A DNA stretch of 64,000 nucleotides, from assembly GCF_003721245.1 (NCBI RefSeq), contig NZ_RIZG01000004.1, forward strand, positions 62,001 to 126,000, read 5' to 3'. Numbering within the stretch: the stretch's first letter is position 1; each line of letters starts with the position of its first letter. Positions 40,983 through 48,131 of the stretch are shown here, piece after piece. The notes beneath the pieces were generated by a model. It was given only the letters and a program-made list of their open reading frames with translations, made no database searches and was not told the origin of the DNA. The position numbers and the translations under genes were made by a program. The stretch comes from Marinomonas hwangdonensis. GTDB taxonomy: Bacteria > Pseudomonadota > Gammaproteobacteria > Pseudomonadales > Marinomonadaceae.

Positions 40983-41010
40983 AATCGGCGCACTTAGGTG
41001 CGTCGATTTT
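40983..41010 (+). terminator. Hairpin terminator between gyrA and serC
   Basis: AATCGGCGCAC pairs with GTGCGTCGATT (one G-T) around a TTAG loop and ends in TTTT. It lies 40 bases ahead of the serC start, so it may be partial and let transcription into the supraoperon through. Confidence 0.7.
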
Positions 41011-41051
41011 ATTGTGAATGGGTCCTGAAAATACTAGAGGTAACGAGCAGG

Positions 41052-42131
41052 ATGAGCCGAGTATATAATTTTTGTTCTGGACCAGCAGCGCTTCCTGAAG
41101 CGGTGTTGAAAAAAGCCCAAGCTGAAATGCTTGATTGGCACGGTGCTGGTGTTTCTGTGATGGAAATGAGCCATCGTAGTGAGGAGTTTATGTCGATTTT
41201 GGCCTCCGCCAAGGCTCGATTGACCCGTTTGCTCAACATTAATGATGATTATGAGATTTTATTTGTTCAAGGTGGGGCGTCTACCTTGTTTTCTCAGATT
41301 CCTGCCAACCTGGTAAACGGTTTTGATTCAGCTTGCTTCTTGAATACGGGGGCTTGGTCCTCAAAAGCCATCAAAGAAGCAAAAAGATACACTAATGTTA
41401 AGGTAGTTGGCTCTTCAAAAGAACAAAATTACACGACGGTGCCAGATTTTTCTAGTCTTGATCTAGATGAGAGCGCTGCGTATCTGCACCTTTGTCCAAA
41501 TGAAACCATCGGTGGTCTTGAGTTCGCGGATCTGCCTGAAACAGGTTTGCCAATTGTGGCGGATTTGTCGTCGACGATATTGTCTCGCAAAATTGATGTG
41601 AGCAAATACGGTCTGATTTATGCGGGCGCCCAGAAAAATGTCGGCCCTGCAGGTGTAGTCATTTGTATTATCCGCAAAGATTTGTTGGCGCGTAGCCATG
41701 ATTCATTGCCGTCTATCTGGAACTTTGCCAATTTGGCAGCAAACGATTCCATGATTAATACGCCACCGACGTTTGCGATCTATCTGGCGGATTTGGTGTT
41801 TGAGTGGTTGGAGGAGCAAGGTGGCGTTGAGGCAATAGAAGCTATCAACGCTCTTAAGGCAAAGACTCTGTACGATTTTATTGACGCCAGTGCCTTTTAT
41901 TCTAACCCCATTGACCCTGCCTTTAGATCGCGGATGAACGTGCCTTTTACCTTAGCGGACGAGTCTCTTGAGGCACTTTTCTTACAAGAATCTGAGGCTG
42001 CAGGTTTGCGTACTTTGGCAGGGCACCGCTCTGTTGGTGGGATGCGAGCCAGTATTTATAATGCGATGCCAATTGAAGGGATTGTTGCTTTGATTGAGTT
42101 TATGCGCGATTTTGAAAAGCGTCACGCTTAA
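41052..42131 (+). CDS. serC: Phosphoserine aminotransferase
   Basis: PLP enzyme of serine and pyridoxal phosphate synthesis that converts 3-phosphohydroxypyruvate and glutamate to phosphoserine. The 359 residues have the PLP lysine in YAGAQKNVGPAG near 196 and the HRSVGGMRASIYNAM C-terminal segment. I set the start at MSRVYNFCSGPAALP, which matches homologues; the open frame extends 18 codons further upstream through the terminator hairpin and that part is unlikely to be translated. It is the first gene of the serC-pheA-tyrA/aroA-cmk-rpsA supraoperon. Confidence 0.96.
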   Translation: MSRVYNFCSGPAALPEAVLKKAQAEMLDWHGAGVSVMEMSHRSEEFMSILASAKARLTRLLNINDDYEILFVQGGASTLFSQIPANLVNGFDSACFLNTGAWSSKAIKEAKRYTNVKVVGSSKEQNYTTVPDFSSLDLDESAAYLHLCPNETIGGLEFADLPETGLPIVADLSSTILSRKIDVSKYGLIYAGAQKNVGPAGVVICIIRKDLLARSHDSLPSIWNFANLAANDSMINTPPTFAIYLADLVFEWLEEQGGVEAIEAINALKAKTLYDFIDASAFYSNPIDPAFRSRMNVPFTLADESLEALFLQESEAAGLRTLAGHRSVGGMRASIYNAMPIEGIVALIEFMRDFEKRHA

Positions 42132-42193: not shown

Positions 42194-43315
42194 ATGTCGA
42201 ATACCAAGCCAGCAGTGCCTGAAACACTGCCTCTGTTGCGTGATCGGATTGATTCGATTGATTCGCAAATACAAATTTTGATTAATGAGCGAGCGCGTTG
42301 CGCGCAAAAAGTAGCTGAAGTAAAGCTCGCTGAGCAGGGCGATGTTGCTGTGGTGTTTTATCGTCCTGAGCGTGAAGCCCAAGTTTTGCGTAGGGTGATG
42401 GAGCGAAATGAAGGGCCATTGGGTAACGAGGAGATGGCGAAGATTTTTCGTCAAGTCATGTCATCCTGTCTGGCACTTGAGAAGCCGTTACGTATTGCCT
42501 TTTTGGGACCTGAAGGAACGTTTACCCAGCAGGCCGCTTTAAAGCATTTTGGTAAATCGATTATCAGTGCTCCTATGGCAGCCATTGATGAAGTGTTTCG
42601 TGAGGTGGAGTCAGGTGCCGCGAATTACGGTGTCGTGCCAGTCGAAAATTCCACGGAAGGCGTGGTCAATCACACGCTTGATAGCTTTCGGGATTCTCGT
42701 TTAAAAATTTGTGGTGAGGTAGAGGAGCGTATTCATCACCACTTGTTGGTGAGTCCGAATATTAATGTGGATGACGTTACGCATATTTATTCTCACCAGC
42801 AGTCTTTAGCCCAATGCCGTGCTTGGTTAGATAGATATTGGCCTCACGTTGAGCGTGTTGCGGTCAGTTCTAATGCAGAGGCTGCGCGACTTGTTGCCGA
42901 CGCTGGTCGAAATGGTCGAGCGGTTGCCGCGATTGCCGGTGAAGTGGCTTGTGAATTGTATGGTCTTTTAAAAGTATCAGCCAATATTGAAGATAGGCCT
43001 GATAACACGACGCGATTTTTAATCATTGGCAATGAAGATGTTCCGCCAAGTGGTAAGGATAAAACCTCTCTACTTATTAGTGCCAAGAATGAGCCTGGTG
43101 CTTTGTATCGTTTGCTTGAAGCGTTTGAACGCCATGGCGTAGACATGACGCGTTTAGAGACTCGCCCCTCGTTAGTGAGTCGTTGGGGCTATATTTTTTA
43201 TATTGACTTTGTTGGGCATTTTTCAGACAGCGAATGTCAGGCGGTAATCGAAGAGCTACGAGCGCGCGCGTCAGAGGTAAGAGTATTAGGTTCTTACCCT
43301 GTTGCTGTGTTGTAA
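42194..43315 (+). CDS. pheA: Bifunctional chorismate mutase/prephenate dehydratase (P-protein)
   Basis: Makes phenylpyruvate from chorismate. The 373 residues hold an AroQ chorismate mutase domain (about 8-95), a prephenate dehydratase domain (about 98-275, with the catalytic motif NTTRFLIIG) and an ACT regulatory domain (about 287-365) with PGALYRLL and LETRPS, the phenylalanine-binding GALV/ESRP motifs in slightly altered form. Feedback inhibition by phenylalanine is the family norm. It is 62 bases after serC and 44 bases before tyrA-aroA; the hisC found here in pseudomonads is absent. Confidence 0.96.
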   Translation: MSNTKPAVPETLPLLRDRIDSIDSQIQILINERARCAQKVAEVKLAEQGDVAVVFYRPEREAQVLRRVMERNEGPLGNEEMAKIFRQVMSSCLALEKPLRIAFLGPEGTFTQQAALKHFGKSIISAPMAAIDEVFREVESGAANYGVVPVENSTEGVVNHTLDSFRDSRLKICGEVEERIHHHLLVSPNINVDDVTHIYSHQQSLAQCRAWLDRYWPHVERVAVSSNAEAARLVADAGRNGRAVAAIAGEVACELYGLLKVSANIEDRPDNTTRFLIIGNEDVPPSGKDKTSLLISAKNEPGALYRLLEAFERHGVDMTRLETRPSLVSRWGYIFYIDFVGHFSDSECQAVIEELRARASEVRVLGSYPVAVL

Positions 43316-43359: not shown

Positions 43360-45582
43360 ATGTCTGATGATTTGACACCTCCAGGAAAGAAGAAGTTTGG
43401 CAATGTCATGATTATTGGTCTTGGCATGATTGGTGGCTCCTTTGCCAAGGCGTTAAAAGAGCGCGGTCTGGCGACCTTGTATGGCGTCGATAGAAGAGAG
43501 AGTGAATTAACGCTAGGGGTGTCTACCGGTGTTATTGATTTTCATGGTGAATTGACGTTTGACTGTGTGTCAAAGATGGACGTGATCGTGTTGGCGACGC
43601 CGGTGAGAGCGATGGAATCGGTTTTGCATGATCTTAAACCTTTGCTTTCAAGTCACACACTCATTACGGATGTGGGCTCGACAAAAGGTAGTGTGGTTAC
43701 TGCCGCACAGCGTGTTTTTGGTTATATGCCGACCCATTTTATACCAGGGCATCCAATCGCTGGTGCAGAGAAAAGTGGTGTTTTAGCGTCTAATTCAAAA
43801 TTGTTTGAAAAGCACATGGCGATTGTGACGCCACTGCCTGACAGCAGTCCTGTCTTGCTTGATCGATTGCATCGTTTATGGCATGCAGTGGGTGCCGATG
43901 TGGTGAGTATGGATGTTGAACATCACGATCATGTGCTTGCTTCCTCCAGTCATTTGCCGCATTTGCTTGCGTATACGCTTGTTGACGCACTGGCGAATGG
44001 CGACCGAAGCCAAGATATTTTCCGATTTGCCGCCGGTGGCTTTCGTGACTTTACACGGATTGCATCGAGTGATCCGGTCATGTGGCGAGACGTATTTCTT
44101 GCCAATAAAGAAGCGACTTTATCGACACTGGATCATTTTACCGAGCGTTTAGCCGACATGCGCACAGCGATAGAGCAAGGCGATGGGGCGAGTATGTTTG
44201 GTGTCTTTACGAGGGCGAAATCTGCTCGGGATCACTTTTTACGTCTGTTAGAACAGCGCACAAAGGGGGGGCAGAAAGAGGTTCGACCAGTGTCTGTTTC
44301 TGTATTGCCCGCTTCTGTTATAAAAGGTGAAGTTTCTTTGTTAGGTGACAAGTCTTTGTCACATAAAGCGATTACTATTGCGGCGCTGTCAGACGGTGTT
44401 AGTGAGATAAGGAACATTGATTTGACGGGGGACGTGCGCATTACGACACAAGCTTTTCGTGATATGGGTGTTGTTATTGAAGAGGTTGCTGCTGATCAGT
44501 TGCGCGTTCATGGTGTTGGTCGTCGTGGTTTAAAAGCACCTATTGCGCCCATCAACGTGCATCAGTCAAGAGAGAGTTTGTACTTGTTATTACCGGTGTT
44601 AGCGGGGCAAACTTTTTCTGTGTCGATAACAGCCGATGACGTTTTGCAACAAAGGCCCATGAGCGATCTGTTTTCTTTGGTCCGCAAAATGGGGGGGGAG
44701 ATTGTGTCCGAGGTTGAAGATTGTTTGCCCGCGACTTTACGCCCTAAGTCACCGACAAATTTGAGTTTTGAAATGCGGTCCGGCTCTGAGCGATTGCGTA
44801 TGGCGGCGTTCTTGGCGGCTTTGTATTCTCCTCAGGTTAGTAAGATTAAGCTTGACGGTCAAACCTTGTCTCACTGTGAAGTGCTGCTGCGACACTTTCG
44901 CTTAGATGTGAAGGGCGACAGTGAAGGTTTTGAGTTACCCTCATCCCCATTAGTTGGCTCAGATATTATTTTATCTGGGGATGAGCATGAAACAATCTGG
45001 TTGGTGCTGCTGGCAACCTTGTTGCCGGGTTCTGAGTTAGTGATTTGCAACGCCGGTTTGGATTCAGATGCCTATGCTCTGCTGTCATTTCTGCAGTCTA
45101 TTGGCGCGGAGGTTGCCCTTCCAAGTAAAAGTGAACGTGGTCTATACGAGGGGAATGTACAGGCTTGCTTTGCTGAGTTAAAGGCGTTTTCGCTGACAAA
45201 CGAGCAAAGCTATCAGTTCCGTGATGAGCTGCCTCTGTTGTGCGTTGCTGCGGCTTACGCAAAAGGTGAAAGTCGTTTACAAGGTATCAACACTTTGCCC
45301 TATCAATATGAGGACAGAGTGCTGGCTCTAGCGGATGCTCTAAAGCAGATGGGGGTTGCCTGTCGAATGGAGAATGGTGAACTGGTTATTGCTGGCAGTG
45401 TTCCTGTTGGCGGTGAGTTGGATTGTGCTGGCGATGATAAGCTTGCACTCGCGTTATTGGCGATTGGTGCTCGAAGTCAGCAGGTGGTTAAGGTTAATGA
45501 TTGTCAGAAATTATTAGAAGAATTTAATGAGTTAGAAAGTGTGACTAGGCAATTAGGTTTTCATTGCCAGGTAACAAAATAG
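43360..45582 (+). CDS. TyrA-AroA fusion: prephenate dehydrogenase with a degenerate EPSP-synthase-like domain
   Basis: One 740-residue frame. Residues 15-300 are an intact prephenate dehydrogenase with the NAD loop GLGMIGGS (20-27), HPIAGAEKSG (131-140) and SSHLPH (196-201). Residues 310-740 have the EPSP synthase fold pattern (SLLGDKSLSHKA at 326-337, QRPM at 431-434), but key residues differ. Using E. coli AroA numbering: Arg27 is Lys336, Asn94 is Gln402, Gly96 is Arg404, Thr97 is Glu405, Arg100 is Tyr408, Ser170 is Glu477, Gln171 is Arg478, Lys340 is Gln649, Glu341 is Tyr650, His385 is Asp693 and Arg386 is Lys694. Lys22, Ser23, Arg124, Asp313 and Arg344 are kept. The fusion is normal for pseudomonads; loss of the active site is not. 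EPSP synthase activity is doubtful. Confidence 0.9.
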   Translation: MSDDLTPPGKKKFGNVMIIGLGMIGGSFAKALKERGLATLYGVDRRESELTLGVSTGVIDFHGELTFDCVSKMDVIVLATPVRAMESVLHDLKPLLSSHTLITDVGSTKGSVVTAAQRVFGYMPTHFIPGHPIAGAEKSGVLASNSKLFEKHMAIVTPLPDSSPVLLDRLHRLWHAVGADVVSMDVEHHDHVLASSSHLPHLLAYTLVDALANGDRSQDIFRFAAGGFRDFTRIASSDPVMWRDVFLANKEATLSTLDHFTERLADMRTAIEQGDGASMFGVFTRAKSARDHFLRLLEQRTKGGQKEVRPVSVSVLPASVIKGEVSLLGDKSLSHKAITIAALSDGVSEIRNIDLTGDVRITTQAFRDMGVVIEEVAADQLRVHGVGRRGLKAPIAPINVHQSRESLYLLLPVLAGQTFSVSITADDVLQQRPMSDLFSLVRKMGGEIVSEVEDCLPATLRPKSPTNLSFEMRSGSERLRMAAFLAALYSPQVSKIKLDGQTLSHCEVLLRHFRLDVKGDSEGFELPSSPLVGSDIILSGDEHETIWLVLLATLLPGSELVICNAGLDSDAYALLSFLQSIGAEVALPSKSERGLYEGNVQACFAELKAFSLTNEQSYQFRDELPLLCVAAAYAKGESRLQGINTLPYQYEDRVLALADALKQMGVACRMENGELVIAGSVPVGGELDCAGDDKLALALLAIGARSQQVVKVNDCQKLLEEFNELESVTRQLGFHCQVTK

Positions 45583-45600: not shown

Positions 45601-46284
45601 ATGATAAACCAAGGCCCTGTTATTGCGATTGATGGTCCGAGTGGCGCTGGAAAAGGTACGGTCAGTCAATTGGTGGCAGAAAAATTGGGGTGGCACATAC
45701 TGGATAGTGGGGCCTTGTATCGACTTCTTGCTCTTGCTGTATCGCACCATGGTATGTCGACGGACGATGTTGAAACGTTAAAAGTGTTAGCAGAGCATCT
45801 GGATATTCAGTTTAAGCAGTCTGTTGATGGACACGTTGAAATTATTTTAGAGGGTGAGGTTGTAACGCAAGCTATCCGAACAGAAGAAATAGGCAATAAC
45901 GCCTCTAAGTTGGCGGCTATTCCTGAGGTTCGCGATGGGTTGTTATCTCGCCAGCGCGCATTTTCACAAGCGCCGGGACTGGTGGCTGACGGACGAGATA
46001 TGGGGACGGTAGTTTTCCCTTCTGCCCCTATTAAAGTGTTTTTGACGGCTTCTGCGGAAGAGCGCGCCCAGCGACGTTTAATGCAATTGCAGGAAAAAGG
46101 CGAAACTGTTAATCTTGATGAACTTGTAGAGACAATTAAAGAGCGAGATGAGCGAGATGCTAATAGAGAAATTGCTCCTCTTGTGCCTGCAGCGGGCGCT
46201 TTAGTGATTGACAGTACAGATTTAACCATTGAGCAGGTTGTCGAGATGATTTTTGCTGAAACAGTGAAAGCAGGTCTTGTATAA
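45601..46284 (+). CDS. cmk: Cytidylate kinase
   Basis: Phosphorylates CMP and dCMP with ATP. The 227 residues contain the P-loop GPSGAGKGT (13-21), the DSGALYR segment (36-42), the [11 protein letters not shown] segment near 130 and the arginine-rich lid RDERDANRE near 179. It follows tyrA-aroA by 18 bases and has AGAGGAA ahead of the ATG. cmk-rpsA adjacency is conserved across proteobacteria. Confidence 0.96.
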
Positions 46285-46318: not shown

Positions 46319-46448
46319 AGATCAAATGTTATTCAAGTCGGTAAGGGTGCCAGCAAGCCTTTATCGCATCATCCAAAAAAATTGACCCACATTGGCTGGC
46401 GATGTGGATAAAGGTTTGGTTCTCCAAACCGATTATATAGGAAATACA

Positions 46449-48131
46449 ATGACTCAAAGCTTCGCAGAACTGTTTGAAGAAAGCCTGTTAACCGTCGAAA
46501 TGGCGCCAGGCTCAATTGTTACTGGTATTGTTGTTGATATCGACAGCGAATGGGTAACTGTTCATGCAGGTCTTAAATCTGAAGGCGTAATTCCTCGTTC
46601 TCAGTTCCTAACGGATAGTGGTGAGTTCAACGTTAAAATCGGTGACGAAGTTAAAGTTGCTCTTGATGCTGTTGAAGATGGTTTCGGTGAGACTAAATTG
46701 TCTCGTGAAAAAGCGAAACGTGCAGAAACTTGGTCTGTTCTTGAAAAAGCATACGAAGAAAATGCCATCGTTCACGGTGTTATCAATGGTAAAGTCAAAG
46801 GTGGCTTCACAGTTGATATCGCGAATATCCGTGCCTTCTTGCCTGGTTCTTTGGTAGATGTTCGCCCAATCCGCGACACATCTCATTTGGAAGGTGTTGA
46901 TCTAGAGTTCAAACTTATCAAGCTTGATCAAAAACGTAACAACGTTGTTGTATCTCGTCGTGCCGTTATGGAAGCGACTAACAGCGCTGAACGCGAAACA
47001 TTGCTTGCTTCTCTTGAAGAAGGTCAAGAAGTTAAAGGTATCGTTAAGAACCTTACTGACTACGGTGCTTTCGTTGATCTTGGTGGTGTTGATGGTCTTC
47101 TACACATCACTGACATGGCTTGGAAACGCATCAAGCACCCAAGTGAAATCATTGCTGTTGGCGATGAAATCGATGTTAAAGTACTTAAGTTTGACCGCGA
47201 GCGTAACCGCGTGTCTCTAGGTCTTAAGCAGTTGGGTGAAGATCCATGGGTAGCAATCAAAGCCCGTTACCCAGAAAATACAAAAGTAACGGCTAAAGTG
47301 ACTAACTTGACTGATTACGGCTGCTTCGCTGAACTTGAAGAAGGCGTTGAAGGTCTAGTGCACGTTTCTGAAATGGATTGGACTAACAAAAACATTCACC
47401 CATCTAAAGTTGTTCAGATTGGTGATGAAGTTGAAGTTATGGTTCTTGACATTGATGAAGAGCGTCGTCGTATTTCTTTGGGTATCAAGCAGTGCACAAT
47501 GAACCCATGGGAAGAATTCGCAACTTCTTTCAATAAAGGCGACAAAATCTCTGGCGCAATCAAGTCTATCACTGACTTTGGTGTGTTCATTGGTCTTGAC
47601 GGCGGTATTGACGGTCTTGTTCACCTTTCTGACCTATCTTGGGATGAAGCTGGTGAAGAAGCGGTTCGTCAGTACAAGAAAGGCGACATGCTAGAAACCG
47701 TTGTTTTGTCTATTGATGCTGAGCGTGAGCGTATTTCTTTGGGCGTTAAACAGCTTGAAGAAGACCCATTCCTTGCTTATGTTGCTGAAAATGACAAAGG
47801 TGCAGTTGTAAACGGTACTGTATCTTCTGTTGATGCAAAAGGTGCGATTGTGATTCTTTCTGAAGGCGTTGAAGCAACGTTGAAAGTATCTGAAATCAGC
47901 CGTGAGCGCGTTGAAGATGCCACTACTGCATTGAAAGAAGGTGATAAAGTAGAAGCAGCGATCATTAATGTTGATCGTAAAGCTCGTACTATTGCTATCT
48001 CTATCAAGCAGAAAGACGCAACTGAAGAAAAAGCAGCTATCAAATCTCATTCTGAGAAGCAGCAAGCTGAAGCGACAGGTCCTACCACTATCGGTGATTT
48101 GATCAAAGCTCAGCTAGAAAACCAAAACTAA
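46449..48131 (+). CDS. rpsA: Ribosomal protein S1
   Basis: Largest small-subunit protein, which binds mRNA at the ribosome. The 560 residues contain six S1 repeats (about 21-87, 105-171, 192-260, 277-347, 364-434, 451-520), several with the typical DYGAF/DFGVF and DGLLH/DGLVH signatures. The start is [12 protein letters not shown] as in homologues, behind AGGAA; upstream extension to a TTG is not credible. Codon use is strongly biased to the set favoured in highly expressed genes. The 164-base leader may mediate S1 autoregulation, as in E. coli. Confidence 0.97.

Follow-up and report, generated by a model that had tools for sequence, protein, structure and literature searches.

An EPSP synthase half with a broken active site is retained in the TyrA-AroA fusion throughout the sampled Marinomonas genus

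Among described systems, the TyrA-AroF fusion of Pseudomonas syringae comes from the same fusion family as the gene studied here. According to Song et al. 2005 (PMC1173090), about 200 residues are missing from its AroF half, and a stand-alone copy of the gene entered the genome, probably by transfer; they suggest that the AroF remnant could turn into a new regulatory domain. Marinomonas likewise has a broken fused EPSP-synthase half together with a stand-alone gene. However, the P. syringae case, as described there, is a deletion in one species, whereas the Marinomonas half is full length, has a predicted fold, is point-substituted, occurs genus-wide and is under purifying selection, and the second AroA of Marinomonas is of the E. 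coli type. For Candida albicans Aro1, PMC9074039 describes an inactive DHQase domain through which the homodimer forms, and a separate protein, Dqd1, that is able to make up for the lost activity. Both Aro1 and the Marinomonas protein contain a dead domain in a shikimate-pathway fusion, with active-site substitutions and a separate enzyme that compensates. Aro1, as described there, is a fungal five-domain AROM protein whose dead domain is a DHQase, not an EPSP synthase, and its inactivity was demonstrated biochemically, whereas the Marinomonas case is argued from sequence. Active TyrA-AroA fusions of Acinetobacter and Pseudomonas (PRK14806) share the architecture of the Marinomonas protein, and 5bs5 and 5buf, taken to be the second half of such a fusion, are among its nearest folds; the active fusions differ in having intact AroA halves. 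A non-catalytic EPSP-synthase-like domain also exists in a regulator, the fungal QutA activator, which is derived from the DHQ-synthase and EPSP-synthase domains of AROM; QutA differs in being a transcription factor with no TyrA fusion. Among the literature matches listed, which are open-licence papers, we found no description of a dead AroA half in Marinomonas, which does not prove its absence from the literature. The Marinomonas case differs from these precedents in that its EPSP-synthase domain is full length, genus-wide and selected.

We analysed a stretch of 64,000 nucleotides from Marinomonas hwangdonensis (the window), in which serC, pheA, a TyrA-AroA fusion gene, cmk and rpsA follow one another in one direction:

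40998..42131, + strand: serC, upstream
42194..43315, + strand: pheA (prephenate dehydratase), upstream; also covered, at a score under the cut-off, by a chorismate mutase/prephenate dehydratase model
43360..45582, + strand: TyrA-AroA fusion ORF, full length, 740 aa, in frame (NCBIfam PRK14806.1, 914 bits against a cut-off of 902)
43393..44259, + strand: TyrA half (prephenate dehydrogenase), residues 12-300, intact and under strong constraint (Pfam PDH_N and PDH_C; median dN/dS 0.029)
44263..44280, + strand: linker between the domains, residues 302-307, predicted flexible (pLDDT < 50)
44293..45579, + strand: AroA-derived putative pseudo-EPSP-synthase half, residues 312-740, catalytically dead as judged by sequence
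44293..44619, + strand: N-terminal segment of this half, residues 312-420 (dN/dS 0.032, about TyrA-level constraint)
44563..44583, + strand: residues 402-408, where Q, R, E and Y replace E. coli N94, G96, T97 and R100 in the alignment
44620..45159, + strand: middle segment, residues 421-600, the fastest evolving (dN/dS 0.124)
44788..44793, + strand: residues 477-478, aligned with E. coli 170-171, here E-R
45160..45579, + strand: C-terminal segment, residues 601-740 (dN/dS 0.098)
45304..45309, + strand: residues 649-650, aligned with E. coli K340-E341, here Q-Y
45436..45441, + strand: residues 693-694, aligned with E. coli H385-R386, here D-K
45601..46284, + strand: cmk, downstream
46392..48131, + strand: rpsA, downstream (ORF limits; the family match starts at residue 20)

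The PRK14806 match covers residues 12-738 of the 740, which places the protein in the TyrA-AroA fusion family, and residues 319-718 match the EPSP synthase fold (PF00275, 160 bits). Both halves are thus read through in one frame, the AroA half at full length, as the earlier note on this DNA had described. That note had also called the TyrA half intact, and this is borne out by its PDH_N and PDH_C scores (119 and 96 bits) and by the HPIAGAEKSG stretch and residues G226, G227, F228 and D230-R233, which are invariant across 75 fusions.

In an alignment of the AroA half to AroA of E. coli K-12 (b0908) and to 46 rows of intact fused relatives, we scored 18 ligand or catalytic positions, which we take to be those of EPSP-synthase crystallography, accepting two residues at 96, 170 and 336. 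The window half keeps six of the 18 (K22, S23, R124, S169, D313 and R344); the other 12 are replaced, R27K and R386K conservatively. All eight substitutions singled out by the earlier note are real in this alignment (G96R, T97E, R100Y, Glu at 170, Q171R, K340Q, E341Y and H385D), and the substituted positions do coincide with the ligand positions. The loss stands, while the note's figure of 11 in 16 gives way to 12 in 18, two of them conservative. Its Glu at 170 is likewise present, but the residue lost was not Ser, since the intact fused relatives have Ala there in 46/46 rows (and Glu at 336 in as many), so that the change is A170E. E. coli Lys411 would be an unfair test, because the intact fused rows that reach it have Thr at this position. 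The intact relatives themselves keep 18/18 positions in 46/46 rows (45 distinct, L105 and L196 being identical), a clean score that in part reflects choice, since the rows were picked for reading intact in earlier alignments; excluded were L101 and L104, which are intact with a stand-alone AroA of their own, and L211, which is cut by a contig end. With 46 rows of the same alignment at 18/18, chance or misalignment can be ruled out.

The same holds across the 48 sampled genomes of Marinomonas and Maribrevibacterium, the sole GTDB genus sampled of the family, where the fused halves keep 3-9 of the 18 positions. R100, K340, E341 and H385 are kept in 0/48. K22 remains in 46/48 and R344 in 47/48, so some ligand binding is possible. 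Against the aroA equivalog model TIGR01356, the window half scores 172.5 bits (residues 323-716) and misses the cut-off of 287.25 bits, which 0/48 of the fused halves reach (range 129-203). Maribrevibacterium harenarium (L186, genome G016), which falls inside the GTDB genus Marinomonas, has the lowest-scoring dead half, at 129 bits.

The fold itself is predicted to persist, so that a conserved fold goes with lost catalytic residues, as in pseudoenzymes. An AlphaFold model of the half, built with 39 genus sequences, has a pLDDT of 92.8 and a pTM of 0.90. Its nearest Foldseek matches are EPSP synthases, 3slh (E 5.9e-45) and 5buf (TM 0.92, rmsd 2.4), and the top VIA-align matches are 3rmt (Z 45.4) tied with 5bs5 (Z 45.2, rmsd 2.2 over 426 residues). 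The latter is the A. baumannii EPSP synthase; we take 5bs5 and 5buf as the second half of the Acinetobacter fusion because the chains are numbered 312-756. As to the open or closed state, unliganded CP4 and Klebsiella forms fit better in Foldseek than liganded ones and Coxiella shows the opposite, giving no clear lean. The model of the whole fusion has a pTM of 0.66 and a disordered linker (302-307), so no packing of the TyrA half against the AroA half is predicted.

The earlier note predicted a functional aroA elsewhere, and a search for a second copy found one. The window genome, 3.46 Mb in 25 contigs with a listed completeness of 100%, encodes three proteins that match PF00275: MurA, the fusion and, on a different contig (C23), an AroA of 430 aa. 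This AroA agrees with E. coli at 27/27 compared positions and scores 469.6 bits on TIGR01356, and thus appears intact. A stand-alone AroA is present in 47/48 genus genomes, the exception (G041) being 77% complete. One of the 47 copies (L097, G026, C45:83500-86000) is split over two frames by a frameshift; this may be an assembly error, because the fused half of G026 is also broken and the cell would otherwise have no EPSP synthase. The stand-alone AroAs have a mean protein identity of 86% across the genus and a median dN/dS of 0.035.

We then compared relatives outside the genus. From 194 genomes of the order sampled, PF00275 was scored in 143 (31 + 44 + 45 + 23), picked among the matches listed: non-genus genomes for which a fusion was listed or a long frame occurred, and some that had just TyrA. 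A genome was counted as having no E. coli-type AroA if no other PF00275 match reached at least 455 bits, a leftover match of 354-432 bits being read as MurA. Such genomes contain, counted by hand, 101 halves that are full length and either fused or in line but split by a stop (44 + 42 + 12 + 3); they score 372.8-415.1 bits, as against 162 bits for the window half, and their catalytic positions were checked in the aligned rows only. Three more halves without an E. coli-type AroA are cut short (245, 271 and 346 bits).

A fusion and an E. coli-type AroA occur together in eight non-Marinomonas genomes. In four of them (G225, G094, G083 and G155) the fused halves score 289-306 bits and keep 14-17 of the 18 positions, G225 lacking K22 only. 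In the other four (G147, G054, G218 and G103) they score 380-393 bits and keep 18/18 beside the stand-alone enzyme, so the presence of a second AroA is not enough by itself to cause decay. The intact fused half of G218 (L101) has Ala at E. coli position 96, a change that lowers glyphosate sensitivity, while the stand-alone AroA of that genome has Gly96. Among named genomes, 12/12 eroded fusions have a stand-alone AroA and 6/6 intact controls have none; every eroded fusion among the 42 non-genus loci is included in the 12, and the six controls are a selection from the remainder. The eroded fusions belong to Marinobacterium, Nitrincola and one Oceanospirillaceae MAG and keep 7-14 of the 18 positions. 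Of these 12, seven score 294-319 bits and clear the aroA cut-off, and five miss it (233-279), so erosion outside the genus is milder than in Marinomonas, and the NCBIfam aroA cut-off is no marker of it there. Eroded fused halves outside the genus, in Nitrincolaceae and another family, were seen only alongside a stand-alone AroA.

In L263-L267, from five more genomes that have a stand-alone AroA, a tyrA frame of 305-354 aa is followed by cmk-like and rpsA-like frames with no AroA half between, by a gene order read by eye, with tyrA and cmk profile-checked in L263 only. These relatives keep tyrA beside cmk and rpsA, so TyrA does not need an AroA half in general. In family f24 (G109, G167, G191, G070, G213, G233 and G140), tyrA and aroA lie in line as separate open frames, the AroA part scoring 380-402 bits; either the fusion was reversed or these relatives never fused the genes. 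Separate in-line frames also occur in several of the 23 further genomes scored. In family f47, an AroA with E. coli-type scores (482 and 478 bits) adjoins an unfused tyrA (G113:C1:353527-355808 and G215:C2:56296-58529), so an E. coli-type AroA can also occupy the old place in the operon. Two genomes have a third protein of the EPSP synthase fold beside the fusion and a MurA-like match, at G231:C15:167363-168562 (194 bits, 434 aa) and G074:C1:655407-656624 (168 bits, 456 aa); that of HdN1 (the record of L196, taken as G074) barely matches TIGR01356.

In a TyrA-half tree built from 82 rows by a quick method, with 23 of its 78 forks open, broken halves occur at three positions, namely Marinomonas, a Nitrincolaceae group and one other family, and the genomes without an AroA half sit in the latter two. 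A family without stand-alone AroA stands beside Nitrincolaceae with a support of 84, on an open fork. In the AroA tree, Marinomonas adjoins Nitrincolaceae (support 95). Since the stand-alone AroAs form one group (support 81) in a limited tree, with outgroups sampled as one genome per family, one old gain with later losses and several transfers are both possible. We infer that the gain came before the decay, an order that fits the four genomes in which both enzymes are intact. A stand-alone AroA of the E. coli type would have been gained and have taken over the EPSP reaction, relieving the fused half of its catalytic duty; the cleft would then have been lost in the Marinomonas ancestor, in keeping with the absence of R100, K340, E341 and H385 from every sampled member, and the half would have been retained as a non-catalytic partner of TyrA. 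The active-site loss most likely predates the radiation of the genus.

The dead-looking half is nonetheless retained in 48/48 genus genomes, open over 423-444 aa in each, with no deletion. Length counts here as evidence of openness because frames were chosen stop to stop, and stops make up 4.6% of single changes in this half, so that neutral change at 0.25 per site would produce about 15. A pseudogene, with stops, frameshifts or deletions, is therefore not what we see, and full-length halves in 48 genomes rule out sequencing error as well. The dN/dS comparison proposed by the earlier note (Nei-Gojobori, pairwise, 46 genomes with both genes readable) gave medians of 0.099 for the dead half and 0.029 for the TyrA half, over 12 pairs at dS 0.03-1.0 that share some genomes and are not independent; the half is under purifying selection. 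The segment medians from these 12 pairs are 0.032 (N-terminal), 0.124 (middle) and 0.098 (C-terminal). Mean protein identities in the genus are 83% for TyrA and 72%, 40% and 56% for the three segments. In intact fusions, the AroA and TyrA halves gave 0.097 and 0.126 (38 pairs, including some of distant genera with doubtful dS, and base composition is suspected of distorting these values too). Absolute dN/dS is not comparable between the two sets, so only the ratio of medians to TyrA was used, which is 3.4 in Marinomonas and about 0.8 in intact fusions. Among 13 rows of Nitrincolaceae, none of the pairs qualified for dN/dS.

A broken cleft, a second AroA, genus-wide retention, purifying selection and a predicted fold were thus all obtained by computation. 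We consider it probable, at roughly 0.72, that the AroA half is a pseudoenzyme domain, with a predicted EPSP synthase fold but without the residues that bind S3P and PEP and catalyse the reaction, kept as a non-catalytic partner of TyrA. The earlier note's reading of the half as a pseudoenzyme gains support from the loss of cleft residues throughout the genus and from purifying selection across the whole half. Most likely the half would serve as a structural or oligomerization module for TyrA, and possibly it tunes TyrA. A structural or oligomer role fits best because the segment adjoining TyrA, the N-terminal one, matches TyrA itself in constraint, whereas the cleft drifts freely; a TyrA-related role would rest mainly on this N-terminal segment (312-420). 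Counting against the explanation are the wide drift of the middle segment, the relatives whose tyrA stays in place with no AroA half, the four relatives with both enzymes intact, the retention of K22 and R344, and a fusion model that predicts no packing of the two halves.

The main rival, which we regard as unlikely, is that the half is a dead and functionless relic, kept only because TyrA or the operon would suffer from truncation or misfolding within the fusion, so that selection acts against misfolding. Such a relic would agree with the recurrence, among relatives that have a stand-alone AroA, of halves that are eroded or missing, with the C-terminal and middle segments evolving at 3.4 and 4.3 times the TyrA median dN/dS, and with a cleft conserved no more than the rest of the half. 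Yet the half is full length in 48/48 genomes, although half-less genomes occupy two places in the TyrA-half tree of the relatives; the N-terminal segment is constrained like TyrA; and new residues have become fixed. Specifically, the genus is at least 95% fixed for a residue unlike the intact majority at 27 positions, at 10 of which the intact rows are likewise at least 95% fixed. The N-terminal segment is not unusually conserved for an AroA, with an entropy of 0.82 in the genus vs 0.77 in the order-wide set of intact rows; the corresponding values are 1.91 vs 0.84 for the middle and 1.33 vs 0.95 for the C-terminal segment.

Readings that give the cleft a new ligand are less probable still. 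As an allosteric sensor, which would be a long shot, a cleft with Tyr, His, Asp and Arg and the kept Lys22 and Arg344 might bind tyrosine, prephenate or PEP, and the opening and closing of the two domains might tune prephenate dehydrogenase; if so, a catalytic domain gone out of use would have supplied feedback control to a tyrosine-branch enzyme that has no ACT domain. Stated more broadly, the remodelled cleft might bind some other small anion or an aromatic end product and control TyrA, or support another catalysis, which we consider highly improbable. In favour of such readings, K22 and R344 persist in nearly every member, K27 and R96 are fixed within the 24-species subclade of the window and Y100 and D385 occur in 23 of its members, and no ACT domain is found among the Pfam matches of the fusion. 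Cleft residues nevertheless vary between subclades, and conservation at the 18 cleft positions does not exceed that of the rest of the half, either genus-wide (entropy 1.68 vs 1.44, a difference that is not significant, P = 0.16) or within the 24-species subclade (0.74 vs 0.77, P = 0.46). In the intact rows these values are 0.00 for the cleft vs 0.88 for the rest, and the former special conservation of the cleft is gone in the dead half. The enzyme with a new substrate that the earlier note offered as an option fares worse on this comparison, which gave no sign of cleft constraint, and becomes the less likely of its two proposals. As for an EPSP synthase that is still active with unusual residues, the window protein does have K22, R124, D313 and R344 and NCBIfam names the whole protein bifunctional, but four key residues are absent in 48/48 and the second AroA is intact and highly conserved, which makes activity extremely improbable.

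The automatic 'bifunctional' label on the window protein is probably wrong, because PRK14806 accepts a fusion (914 vs 902 bits) with a second half that very probably is no EPSP synthase. The margin of acceptance is only 12 bits, and 20/20 genus members scanned match the model at E <= 1e-20, so that the label may be routine in the genus. A mislabelled bifunctional fusion matters for predictions of glyphosate targets and of essential genes. Together with its relatives, the putative pseudoenzyme half of Marinomonas forms part of a replicated natural experiment on the fate of a fused half once a second copy of its activity is present: intact, eroded, absent, or dead but selected.
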